Shown: positions 836-4,508 of the stretch, in pieces
Layout of the letters: every line of letters starts with the position of its first letter
Numbering within the stretch: position 1 is the first letter of the stretch
Assembly (NCBI GenBank): GCA_003554965.1
Contig: PWHR01000037.1
Span: forward strand, 1 to 64,000
Direction of reading: 5' to 3'
Length of the DNA stretch: 64,000 bases
Source of the DNA: Thermoplasmata archaeon
GTDB lineage: Archaea > Thermoplasmatota > Thermoplasmata > Halarchaeoplasmatales > Halarchaeoplasmataceae
The notes under the pieces: model-generated
What the model saw: the letters and a program-made list of their open reading frames with translations, nothing else
Told to the model about the DNA's origin: nothing
Database searches by the model: none
Position numbers and translations under genes: made by a program

Positions 836-1933
836 TTGGAAAAAAAAGATCCGTTCGTTTACGCCCACGAGAGGGAAAAAGATATCGTTTGGATGAGCCA
901 GAACACCAATCAGCTCGAAACATCATCTAAAATCCAGGAGGCTATGCTCAAGGCTTTGAAAGAAGGGAAGCATAATCTTTATCCCCACCGCGACGGGGTA
1001 CTAGGGTTCAAAGATGTGCTTTTAGATGATCTTGGTCTAAAAGACAATTACGATGCTCTGATCACGAATGGAGCGATAGAAGCGACCTATACCCTTACGA
1101 GAGCGATGTTATCTGAAGGTGATAACGTTGTAGCGTCGGATCCAAGTTTCATGCCTATACATCACCAGGTTGATCTATGTGATGCAGAAACGAAGGAGAT
1201 AGACGTCTACAAAGATCCCTACAAGTTGACCGTAGAAGAAGTCAACGAAGCGGTGGATAGGAACACCGAGATGATCTTGTTGATAGATCCTTTGAACCCA
1301 CTAGGTACTTCTTACACAGAAAAAGAAGTCAAGGGCATCTCGGAAATAGCAGAGGACAACGATATCTTGCTGGTCCACGACATCACCTATCGAGATTTCG
1401 CCTATGAACATACTTTAGCTTCTGAATTCGTTCCGGAAAGGACTATTTTCGTATACTCATTTTCCAAAAACGTAGGTTTCGCTGGTATGAGGTTAGGTGC
1501 TTTAATCATGCCTGAAGAGTACTCAGAACTTTTACACAAATACCGTACCAATGTACTTTCCGCTAATGTGATAGCGCAGGTCGGCGGCAAGAAGGCTTTG
1601 GAGACCAAAGAAGAGTGGCTGCCGAATATGCTCGATCAATCGAGAAAAAATCAAAAGATCATCAAAGAGGCTGTAGATCAGATACCAGATATACACCTCC
1701 CGGTTTATCCATCCAATACAAACATGTTCGTCATCGATATAGAGAAGACCGGATTAGATCCCCAGAAGGTACAGAAAAAGCTTCTTTACGAACACGGCGT
1801 GTTCGTTAGGGGCGGAAATTATCTCTCAAATACCGCTGGAAACAAATTCATCAGGGTTTCATTTACAGTTCCCCAGGAAGGCGCAGAGAAGTTCGCAGAA
1901 AAATTGCCAGTTGTTTTGGAAGATCTGAGATGA
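836..1933 (+). CDS. PLP-dependent class I/II aminotransferase
   Basis: A fold-type I pyridoxal-phosphate aminotransferase of 365 residues. It contains the substrate-loop motif DPLNPLGT, the HDITYRDFAYE segment carrying the Asp and Tyr that bind PLP, and SFSKNVGFAGMRLG with the likely Schiff-base lysine at about residue 211. The C-terminal domain ends with an Arg-containing segment (NKFIRVSF) where the substrate carboxylate normally binds. The amino-acid substrate cannot be read from sequence; Asp, aromatic or histidinol-phosphate type enzymes all share these motifs. The start is TTG at 836 preceded by GGTGG; the nearby ATG at 825 is out of frame. The stop codon overlaps the start of flpA by 4 bases (ATGA), so the two are translated from one transcript, although no functional link is obvious. 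Confidence 0.85.
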   Translation: MEKKDPFVYAHEREKDIVWMSQNTNQLETSSKIQEAMLKALKEGKHNLYPHRDGVLGFKDVLLDDLGLKDNYDALITNGAIEATYTLTRAMLSEGDNVVASDPSFMPIHHQVDLCDAETKEIDVYKDPYKLTVEEVNEAVDRNTEMILLIDPLNPLGTSYTEKEVKGISEIAEDNDILLVHDITYRDFAYEHTLASEFVPERTIFVYSFSKNVGFAGMRLGALIMPEEYSELLHKYRTNVLSANVIAQVGGKKALETKEEWLPNMLDQSRKNQKIIKEAVDQIPDIHLPVYPSNTNMFVIDIEKTGLDPQKVQKKLLYEHGVFVRGGNYLSNTAGNKFIRVSFTVPQEGAEKFAEKLPVVLEDLR

Positions 1934-2589
1934 GCGAAGAACCAATCGCGATATCGGATGGAGTTTTCGAAATAGATGGAGAGCTGTACACGTTGAGTTT
2001 GGACCCCGGTACCTCTGTATATGGAGAAGAAATGTTGAACATTGAAGATGTAGAATATAGAAGATGGGACCCTGATAGGAGTAAACTTGGGGCATTTCTT
2101 GAAGAAGAAGGTGGTTTACCTTTCCGCCATGATACTGAAGTACTGTATTTGGGAGCTGGAGACGGAACCACGGTCTCCCATCTCTCCGATATCATCACTG
2201 ATGGTAAAATATATGCTGTAGAAGTTGCGAAGAATCCATACAGAAATCTCTTAGACCTCTCAAAAAAGAGAAAAAACATATTTCCGATCATGGCGGATGC
2301 TAGAAAACCTGAGGATTATCGTGATATAGTTGGAAAAGTGGACCTGGTTTATCAAGACATCGCCCAGAGAGATCAAGTAAAAATCTTTCTAAGGAATCTC
2401 TTTTTTCTTGAAGAAGAGGGCATAGGGATGATCTCCGTAAAGGCTCGAAGTATAGACGTATCTAGCAGTCCTAAGAAAATTTTCGAGGAAGTTGAGAGTG
2501 AGCTAGAAAAAGAGGAGATATCAGTGCTTAGTAGAGTAGACATCTCTTCACGGCAAAAAGATCATACGGTCCTGGTTATAGAAAAGTGA
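1930..2589 (+). CDS. flpA: Fibrillarin-like 2'-O-methyltransferase FlpA
   Basis: The catalytic subunit of the archaeal C/D box sRNP, which methylates ribose 2'-OH groups in rRNA and tRNA guided by sRNAs. The 219-residue protein has the family's N-terminal beta domain (YRRWDPDRSKLGAFL), SAM-binding YLGAGDGTTVSHL, the acidic EVAKNPYRNLL motif, DARKPE, and VYQDIAQRDQ followed by the catalytic-lysine strand MISVKARSID. Its usual partner Nop5/Nop56 is not adjacent, unlike in many euryarchaea where the two are neighbours. The gene overlaps the upstream aminotransferase by 4 bases and is followed by a small GC hairpin with a T-run. Confidence 0.95.
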   Translation: MSEEPIAISDGVFEIDGELYTLSLDPGTSVYGEEMLNIEDVEYRRWDPDRSKLGAFLEEEGGLPFRHDTEVLYLGAGDGTTVSHLSDIITDGKIYAVEVAKNPYRNLLDLSKKRKNIFPIMADARKPEDYRDIVGKVDLVYQDIAQRDQVKIFLRNLFFLEEEGIGMISVKARSIDVSSSPKKIFEEVESELEKEEISVLSRVDISSRQKDHTVLVIEK

Positions 2590-2798: not shown

Positions 2799-3488
2799 TC
2801 ACTTGTATTCTTGACAATTATCACAATACCATCTATTGTACTCGTTTATGTACCGCATCTCGTTACCGCAATTTGGACAAGCATTCTCGTTCTGGGGTCC
2901 GCTGGGTGGCGGTGATTGTGGTGGCTGTGGTTGTTGTTGTGGTTGTTGTTGTGGTTGTTGTTGTGGTTGTTGTTGTGGTTGTTGTTGCTGTGGTTGTTGT
3001 TGCTGTGGCTGCGGCTGCGGCTGTGGCTGTGGCTGTGGTTCTTGCCATCCTGGTTGGGCCTGCACGACTTCATGTCCTGCTACCGTTCTCGCGAGTTGCA
3101 GTAGAAAATATAGGTTGACTATAGGTATCAAAGCGAATACTATCCATTTTGCGGTAGATTCCTTACTATCTTTGTGGTTCATAGCTTCGTACTGTTGAGA
3201 GATGATCTTTTCGTGCCCAGAAACCATCTCTGCCGCTTTGTAGAGCACATACAGATTTACGATTGGGATCAAACCGAGCACAAACCATTTTACGGTGGAT
3301 TCCTTTTTGTTTGTGTGGCCCATAGCTTCGTATTGCCCAGAAACGATTTTTTCATGTCCGGAAATTGCTTCTGCTACCTTCCAAAGAAAGTAGAAGTTCA
3401 CTATAGGTATTAAAGCGATTATGATCCATTTTGCGGTAGATTCCTTTTTAGCTTTGTGCACTATTCTTTCTTCAGGCAATATATACAC
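2799..3488 (-). CDS. Membrane protein with three tandem TM repeats, Pro/Gln linker and zinc ribbon
   Basis: I do not recognise this 229-residue protein. Residues about 13-150 are three near-identical units of about 47 residues. Each runs KESTAKW, a hydrophobic span with LIPIVN, a short amphipathic stretch, then SGHEKI and YEAM. A Pro/Gln linker of about 50 residues made of PQ, PQQQ and PQQQQ units follows. The protein ends in a zinc ribbon with CPNCG and CDNC, 15 residues apart. The likely topology is three short membrane passes with a cytoplasmic zinc-binding tail. The GTG at 3488 lies about 25 bases from a TATA box (leaderless). A TTG at 3479, preceded by AAGGTG, is the alternative start. 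The gene stands alone, convergent with flpA. Function unknown. Confidence 0.8.
   Translation of the reverse strand: MYILPEERIVHKAKKESTAKWIIIALIPIVNFYFLWKVAEAISGHEKIVSGQYEAMGHTNKKESTVKWFVLGLIPIVNLYVLYKAAEMVSGHEKIISQQYEAMNHKDSKESTAKWIVFALIPIVNLYFLLQLARTVAGHEVVQAQPGWQEPQPQPQPQPQPQQQQPQQQQPQQQPQQQPQQQPQQQPQPPQSPPPSGPQNENACPNCGNEMRYINEYNRWYCDNCQEYK
2921..3045 (-). repeat. Coding minisatellite of 6-, 12- and 15-nt units
   Basis: Within the gene at 2799-3488 the minus-strand sequence is an almost pure array of CCA/CAA/CAG codons. It breaks into PQ (6 nt), PQQQ (12 nt) and PQQQQ (15 nt) units. The near identity of adjacent units suggests recent slippage or unequal exchange, so the linker length may vary between strains. 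Confidence 0.8.
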
Positions 3489-3782
3489 CTTGGGTTTAGT
3501 ATTACATAAAGGTATATATATTTTTCCAAAAATCGTTCTATATTTGATATATATGGAAATTTAAATTATGAATTGATGGGCAGAGAGATGTATAATTAAG
3601 GGACTTGATTTCACTAATTCCATCAACATAATGAATTTAATATGATCACGGGAACTTGTTTCGAGTGATTGTCGGGAAAAATTTTAAATCAGAACCAAAA
3701 TGAGGCTGAATTTTTTTTAATAATTAGATCAAGTCTTGACAGTCCAAAGATATTTTACACACTTATAACAATCTAGAATTCG
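3489..3782. promoter_or_regulatory. Divergent intergenic region (294 bp)
   Basis: This gap holds promoters for the genes on either side. On the minus strand an AAATATATATACC element (3511-3525) serves the repeat membrane protein. On the plus strand CACTTATAAC near 3760-3772 lies just before the gene at 3783. The centre is AT-rich with several near-TATA stretches. No ORF with a ribosome site and no tRNA-like fold was seen. Confidence 0.5.
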
Positions 3783-4508
3783 ATGTTTGAGAGGTTAATG
3801 GTAGAGGAAGAGGTGTTTTATGAGCACTGGTGGGGGCCCGTATTCCTTTTCTTTTTTCCTTTTTTCATCGGATTTTCTTACATTGGTTTGCTGTATTTGA
3901 TATTCAATGATGTGAACAATGTATTTTGGATCATGGGCGGAGGCATAGTCCTCTATTTCTTCCCGCCCATGGGAAAAGAATCCGTCATTCCAGGTACCGT
4001 AGTGGCGCTTCAAGGCACGCTAGAACCTGCAACAACGGTGATTTTGGTCTCGGGATCCATAGCATTTATCGATATAATAAATTCATACTTTTTGATGTGG
4101 AATTTTTACATAGTGAAAAAGATTCCGTATCTGGGCGAGTGGATAGATGATTTCCAGGATTACGGAGCTCGAAAGATAGAAGAAAACGATTGGATAAAGA
4201 GACTTTCTTTTCTAGGCGTTGCTAGTTTTGTTGTATTTCCTTTCCAGGGTAGCGGTGGTGTCGGTGCTTCCATTGTAGGTAGGATTATAGGGTTGAAAAA
4301 ATTCTATGCCTGGGTGGCTATAATAATTGGAGCCTCCTTGGGAAGTTTTATTCTTGGAGTCCTCTCGATTTATATGGGAGAAGCGGTTTCTGAGGCTTTT
4401 GAAAGAAACATATGGGCTGGAATAGGTGCGATAGCTGTCCTGATCGTAGTCTTTATATTCTTTTACTACATTGCTAAAACGCGATTACTCAAAGATCCTG
4501 AATCATAA
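3783..4508 (+). CDS. COG2426-family membrane protein (putative small multidrug export)
   Basis: A 241-residue integral membrane protein with about six hydrophobic segments. It matches the family annotated as putative small multidrug exporters (Pfam Sm_multidrug_ex). The diagnostic pair is present: an N-terminal PPMGKESVIPGTVVALQG segment and a C-terminal VVFPFQGSGGVGASIVG re-entrant-like segment, each with Pro and small residues inside the membrane. Transport activity of this family is poorly documented, so the name is only a family label. A TATA-like element about 20 bases upstream favours the ATG at 3783; the ATG at 3798 is the alternative. The downstream epimerase follows after 14 bases with its own GAGGT site, suggesting co-transcription. 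Confidence 0.75.
   Translation: MFERLMVEEEVFYEHWWGPVFLFFFPFFIGFSYIGLLYLIFNDVNNVFWIMGGGIVLYFFPPMGKESVIPGTVVALQGTLEPATTVILVSGSIAFIDIINSYFLMWNFYIVKKIPYLGEWIDDFQDYGARKIEENDWIKRLSFLGVASFVVFPFQGSGGVGASIVGRIIGLKKFYAWVAIIIGASLGSFILGVLSIYMGEAVSEAFERNIWAGIGAIAVLIVVFIFFYYIAKTRLLKDPES

Follow-up and report, generated by a model that had tools for sequence, protein, structure and literature searches.

The locus at positions 2,799–3,488 of the window (the whole 64,000-nt stretch of DNA analysed here) raises the question of what a zinc ribbon does at the end of a small, repetitive membrane protein. The original prediction described a three-fold repeated membrane protein with a Pro/Gln linker and a terminal ribbon, and suggested that the ribbon might bring a partner from the cytoplasm to the membrane. 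The reading frame is real: its coordinates were exact, it lies on the minus strand, and each repeat was matched by the unit profile, which was built from unit 1 of the window and five other units (Table 1).

Anatomy of the three-unit protein

Table 1. Features of the three-unit gene and its upstream region in the window.
Feature	Position	Strand	Remarks
Whole gene	2799..3488	-	229 aa, GTG start, stop at 2799-2801
Membrane unit 1 (KESTxKW - TM - SGHE)	3321..3458	-	profile match E 1.7e-29; AF2 helix 17-41, low confidence
Membrane unit 2	3177..3317	-	profile match E 1.0e-30; AF2 helix 64-88, low confidence
Membrane unit 3	3039..3176	-	profile match E 8.4e-27; AF2 helix 109-136, low confidence
Pro/Gln linker, simple-sequence array, ~51 residues	2886..3038	-	TRF rows within 2911-3040; orthologue alignment
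C-terminal zinc ribbon, 28 aa, Tyr-Lys at stop	2802..2885	-	self match; AF2 block pLDDT 81-84
TATA-like stretch	3511..3524	-	~29 nt upstream of GTG, read from sequence

The three 47-residue units are spaced by exactly 141 nt, and a 74-nt core recurs at this distance as three in-register copies in the DNA. They had been called almost identical, which is too strong, since units 2 and 3 share only 66% and 51% of their residues and 68% and 58% of their nucleotides with unit 1. The linker had been termed slippery on account of its repetitive DNA only; what was observed beyond this is that its length and sequence vary among the three copies with the full architecture (see below). Further reading frames overlap the linker on either strand and are translations of the simple repeat in other frames. 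The ribbon has the layout C203-P-x-C206, 14 residues, C221-x-x-C224 (the numbering omits the first residue), and after this CxxC-x14-CxxC pattern it ends in Tyr-Lys at the stop.

The distance between the GTG and unit 1 is the same in the orthologue at locus L135, and the TATA-like stretch upstream would be compatible with a leaderless transcript. The gene is flanked, as judged by eye, by a fibrillarin-like ORF (1930-2589, plus strand) and a membrane protein (3783-4508, plus strand). The orthologues in genome G002 and at L135 have other gene neighbours than the window gene, thus no operon is evident. Elsewhere in the window, a tRNA gene lies at 603-699 on the minus strand (Rfam tRNA 49.7 bits), whose anticodon was not named by ARAGORN and which perhaps contains an intron.

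AlphaFold2 (AF2) modelled one helix of about 25 residues per unit, the membrane part being at low confidence, and a ribbon with strands at 211-213 and 218-221, so that in the model the CxxC...CxxC pattern sits on a two-strand beta ribbon, as in the zinc ribbon fold; the four Cys, which would bind zinc, are invariant in 12 aligned ribbons. When the confident part of the model was compared with the PDB by Foldseek, ribbons of NudC, RPA, TFIIB and eS31 were returned with E values of 0.95 and above, besides helical matches at low probability. Three single TM segments, as modelled, would put the protein ends on opposite sides of the membrane, and with the ribbon inside, the short N-terminus would lie outside, but the three units may also have an alternating or re-entrant topology.

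Relatives and a wider membrane core

The window protein was compared with five relatives, three of them from small-genome archaea (two of which bear the labels DPANN group and Aenigmatarchaeota). Among the 400 class genomes searched, strong matches of the unit profile were found only in the genome of the window and one congener, and weak partial ones (E ≤ 0.01) in seven further genomes. Scanning of genome contigs added L135, which is 57% identical and has the complete architecture, and two small-genome archaea (DPANN group and Aenigmatarchaeota labels) with 39% and 38% identity in the unit region only. In the search around the DPANN-labelled relative the protein occurred in 4 of 195 genomes, one of which, G726, has only a lone 43-aa unit-like ORF. 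The label of L135, 'Sumerlaeota bacterium', is doubtful, as this 2.6-Mb bin holds a single ribbon match, which is in the three-unit gene itself; the contig is probably misbinned. A viral origin was also considered, and none of the 54 viral-contig stretches that matched a pattern of alignment A4 was confirmed.

Three KEST-like and three GH[E/K/T] motifs occur in the window protein and all five relatives. The comparison of unit number that the original prediction had proposed thus gave three units in all six motif-bearing sequences, and a variable repeat number was rejected, the ORF in G726 being the sole oddity. In the two aligned small-genome relatives, unit 2 carries an insert of hydrophobic character. 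The linker and the ribbon are present in all three of the other copies (window, G002 and L135), between which the ribbon is under constraint and the units have dN values of 0.19–0.24, with dS 2.8 or saturated. The two orthologues and these values rule out a chance or spurious ORF, and the low dN relative to dS, together with the presence of three units in all relatives, makes the repeat look like an old, fixed design rather than a running one. The small-genome ORFs (3/3) stop directly after unit 3, without linker or ribbon, and no ribbon match was found in the two of these genomes with the three-unit gene that were searched. The units therefore have a role independent of the ribbon, which counts against the docking explanation given below, as does the presence of the protein in only two of the five genus genomes, although these assemblies are incomplete. 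By eye, the three-unit gene of the small-genome archaeon L138 (~3780-3940) directly follows a tRNA-like stretch, and the same translated tRNA-like end is seen upstream in L185.

A well-studied family of the same architecture, which would have refuted the original prediction, did not turn up. The only Pfam family above its cut-off was DUF5684 (PF18936), a family of unknown function with a similar TM stretch of the IPxxNxYxLxK type, which scored 30.4 bits with the whole protein (cut-off 27.4) and 33.6 with the unit region; four of the five members of alignment A4 also matched it at E ≤ 0.1. This match is partial: instead of covering most of the 81-position model it sums three stretches, the best being 21-39, and a single unit gave no match. 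No paper naming DUF5684 was found in the open-licence PMC literature searched.

A weak match of the unit profile led to a second membrane core (alignments A5 and A6) with a zinc ribbon and a P/Q linker. Comparison of A6 with the units by hhalign gave a probability of 91.6 and an E value of 8.4e-7 over 41 columns, these being small alignments, and most A6 rows were chosen for having matched the unit profile, which favours this result; with two control families, likewise membrane proteins that bear ribbons, the E values were 0.0066 and 0.058. The A6 profile did not detect the three-unit protein, giving no match in G000 or G002 at E ≤ 1e-5. The repeated unit may be a minor variant of this more widespread membrane core of Thermoplasmata, to which it is remotely similar. 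Like the window protein, the A5/A6 proteins (e.g. L159 and L160) combine repeated membrane units, a P/Q linker and a zinc ribbon, but most of them have the ribbon at the N-terminus, frequently in a generic form, the first membrane segment is longer and no KEST/SGHE motifs were seen by eye. The architecture, held to be unusual in the original prediction, is so only in detail, since a remotely similar core with P/Q linker and ribbon occurs in 14 of the 61 genomes searched. The ribbon was N-terminal in nine of 14 loci inspected (five of generic type, four by eye of a W-Y-C type like the tail) and C-terminal in two, both from the family of the window; it was not seen in three, one of which, from its coordinates, runs off its contig inside the linker. 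Within this family (16 genomes), the A6 core was present in three genomes without the KEST protein, an exclusion that may be due to chance. L055 and L004 share a core that is 36% identical over 271 columns and carry their ribbons at opposite ends. L004 and L035-L040 (G050, G333, G258, G078, G219 and G369) form a family whose members combine a ribbon at the N-terminus with a P/Q linker and a repeated membrane core, and no Pfam family exceeded its cut-off for the core in the three members scanned.

The ribbon as a C-terminal tail

The recurring element is the ribbon and not the repeat, a point that the original prediction missed. In the genome of the window, the ribbon query gave 21 matches at E ≤ 10 and 16 at E ≤ 0.02. 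The ribbon profile A1 had matches at E ≤ 0.001 in 26 of 31 genomes, that of the window included; the five genus genomes gave 17, 12, 37, 11 and 5 of them. With the threshold set to E ≤ 1e-7, matches were confined to 13 of 292 genomes of the phylum, which counts against generality. For the carrier set, the matches of G001 and G003 were sampled in part, and carriers that share their final 40 residues entered the count as one; the remaining ones are not independent of each other. Among the matches listed, 61 carriers from the five genus genomes were examined whose C-terminus is closed; the ribbon stood at the exact end in 49 of them and at most four residues from it in 56. The limit of four residues was also kept by 11 of 12 carriers from the remaining genera of the family and by 2 of 11 from the remaining families of the class (4 of 11 within six residues), again among the matches listed. 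Since class carriers rarely end at the ribbon, the tail arrangement is not general outside the family of the window.

The tail goes together with membrane proteins. A TM segment was predicted by Kyte-Doolittle scanning in 48 of the 49 listed genus carriers that are complete at both ends and at least 60 aa long, and, as background, in 14 of 58 mechanically chosen ORFs of the 64-kb window alone (the three-unit gene among these). The scan misses segments, finding two of three in the G002 orthologue and in L137. The sole TM-less full-length carrier is L018, by eye exosome Csl4-like with a partial ribbon, which was kept in the set. In other families of the class, five of nine full-length carriers among the matches listed had a predicted TM segment. 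Lys and Arg residues were more numerous after the last TM segment than before it in 40 of the listed carriers, fewer in six and equal in eight. The large carriers include an S8 subtilase domain in 7 of 14 scanned, and CARDB, InlB-B-repeat, Ig-like or NosD/beta-helix domains; the others include an RDD protein, a DUF6159 protein and an MMPL/RND-type protein with six ribbons, and in a PspC protein from another family a comparable ribbon lies six residues before the end. When the carrier bodies were clustered with the ribbons masked (BLAST, E 1e-4), 57 of the 61 listed, four being too short, fell into 27 clusters. As 17 of these are single, of which four are N-terminally cut (L050, L074, L081 and L109) and one is L018, the stricter count of about 22 is safer.

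Several further carriers were seen. A family of 2-TM proteins, each with a P/Q linker and a ribbon at the C-terminus (L047, L048, L049, L052-L054 and L059, from G001, G003 and others) recurs across the family of the window, and by eye a ribbonless relative of it adjoins the three-unit gene in L135. L026 (G000:C88:198-1204), a membrane protein ending in a ribbon, gave a weak bPH_3 match (18.8 bits, cut-off 23) and is followed, beyond an in-frame stop, by a second P/Q linker and ribbon in the same frame; a ribbon remnant lies at G000 C88:1561-1608. From other families of the class, L062, L065 and L067 have five or six ribbons each, with predicted TM segments after the ribbons in L062 only.

The ribbon itself is conserved across carriers that BLAST does not join. 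In the 25 cluster ribbons, one per cluster among the matches listed (L018 and L109 were left out as incomplete), all four Cys are kept, and so are Tyr26 in 24, Tyr19 in 23, Lys27 in 22, Trp18 in 21 and Glu14 in 20; Trp18-Tyr19 precede the third Cys and Tyr26-Lys27 are the last residues. The 276 pairs of 24 of these listed ribbons (also without L050) gave a median pS of 0.90 and pN of 0.30, which indicates that the copies are old and constrained. Recent spread at the DNA level was considered because ribbons were seen near contig ends in G002, and was rejected as the main cause by this pS and by a median DNA identity of 61% (25 G002 ribbons). One recent duplicate pair, flanks included, is formed by the L088 ribbon and the one at G002:C7:7940. 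By the pS and pN values, recent copying is unlikely to be the whole cause of the likeness. The simplest reading of the conserved non-ligand residues would be a common binding surface.

Among known families, the eS31/S27ae ribosomal ribbon (PF01599) is the closest by profile over most of the ribbon length, but it is not membrane linked, and the cut-off of Ribosomal_S27 (22.3) was not reached by the 28-aa ribbon (20.6), a 33-aa version (20.9) or the whole protein (15.9). DUF7575 (PF24460) gave only partial matches of 9.6-15.9 bits (cut-off 28.5), and the three-unit gene is absent from the DUF7575 matches of its genome at E ≤ 0.01. DUF7575-like ribbons of this genome are nevertheless on TM proteins in two of the three ORFs examined, so membrane association is not specific to the tail ribbon; in G000, contigs C7, C40 and C41 (L178, L179 and L182), they stand in arrays, and the TM-less third ORF is long and charged. 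As a short C-terminal module on many different proteins, the tail resembles SHOCT (PF09851), which has been suggested to oligomerise or localise its carriers (PMC3581485). SHOCT, widespread in bacteria, is a bi-helical domain, for which the consulted part of PMC11237479 mentions no zinc ligands. The same part describes zinc ribbons on membrane-linked proteins of PSP-type systems, namely YdjL (band-7 with a C-terminal zinc ribbon) and YdjG (two zinc ribbons and a TM), likened to the tail by description, but it describes no common tail across many membrane proteins. A search of titles and abstracts in the open-licence PMC literature found no description of the ribbon tail.

A proposed docking tail and rival explanations

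The explanation that we prefer, with about even chances of being right as a whole, is that the ribbon is a cytosolic docking tail of membrane and surface proteins. The three tandem single-TM units would form the membrane base of a small integral membrane protein, from which a presumably flexible P/Q tether would hold the zinc ribbon in the cytoplasm. This ribbon would be one copy of a tail that stands at the end of small polytopic membrane proteins as well as of large surface proteins of type I across a family of Thermoplasmata, that of the window, whose source is halophilic to judge by its relatives, and a common cytosolic partner, or ribbon-ribbon association, might gather the tailed proteins under the membrane. 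The recruitment of a cytoplasmic partner, as originally proposed, gains indirect support from the ribbon at the end of many other membrane proteins, from the Lys/Arg excess after the last TM segment and from the conserved non-ligand residues, while the partner itself stays putative. Besides the points named above, the low AF2 confidence of the membrane part and the opposite sides on which three TM segments would leave the two ends speak against the docking explanation. In a bolder and rather doubtful form, the exact C-terminal folded ribbon would be a general docking code of the halophilic Thermoplasmata, read by one sub-membrane partner that binds dozens of proteins, with the three-unit protein as the minimal, membrane-only member.

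Many-to-one C-terminal tags are already known, and the tail could likewise serve sorting or processing, in the manner of LPXTG or GlyGly-/MYXO-CTERM; its reader would then be a membrane protease or a sorting machine and not a scaffold. The placement of the tail at the C-terminus would agree with this, as would large carriers in which a hydrophobic stretch at the N-terminus goes with a single TM at the C-terminus; however, the tail is also found on small polytopic RDD, 2-TM, 3-to-4-TM and RND-type proteins, for which surface sorting is unneeded, it is a four-cysteine ribbon on a linker instead of a short motif with TM and basic residues, and it can occur in tandem, which makes a sorting tag improbable. 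Tandem ribbons, up to the six of the RND-type protein, and the four cysteines invariant in the cluster ribbons would equally suit membrane-tethered zinc or redox sensors or buffers, each acting alone and without a common partner. We regard this, too, as unlikely, because the terminal Tyr-Lys and the aromatic and charged positions outside the ligands are almost as well conserved as the ligands themselves, and buffering needs none of them.

Binding of RNA or the ribosome, by which translation would be tied to the membrane, is suggested by the nearest ribbons (eS31/S27ae, RPA and TFIIB). Of the PDB profile matches spanning the greater part of the ribbon, those to eS31/S27ae rank first, and the three matches above them cover only 7-10 residues; Ribosomal_S27 is just below its cut-off, and RPA, TFIIB and eS31 are among the Foldseek rows. 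Against this, the similarity is that of ribbons in general, with Foldseek E values no lower than about 1, and Glu and Asp are abundant in the ribbon, so we give this explanation little credence. The three-unit part could instead be the functional one, for example in membrane sensing or shaping via its KEST and SGHE faces, with the ribbon a secondary add-on, as the motifs and the three units are kept in the ribbonless small-genome archaea and a unit-like ORF stands alone in G726. The window, G002 and L135 copies, however, all have the linker and the ribbon, the latter constrained between them, and a purely secondary ribbon seems quite unlikely to us.

If the docking-tail explanation is true, these archaea would use many-to-one cytoplasmic anchoring, which would do the job done elsewhere by sorting tags or a submembrane skeleton. 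Should one partner read the tail, this would reveal how a group of archaea arranges its surface proteases, repeat-rich surface proteins and membrane proteins from the inside, and the tail would mark the members of the system in every genome. Even without a partner, the ribbon switches ends on the same core and stands last in at least some 20 different kinds of membrane protein within a single genus, and is thus a testable case of a portable adaptor module.
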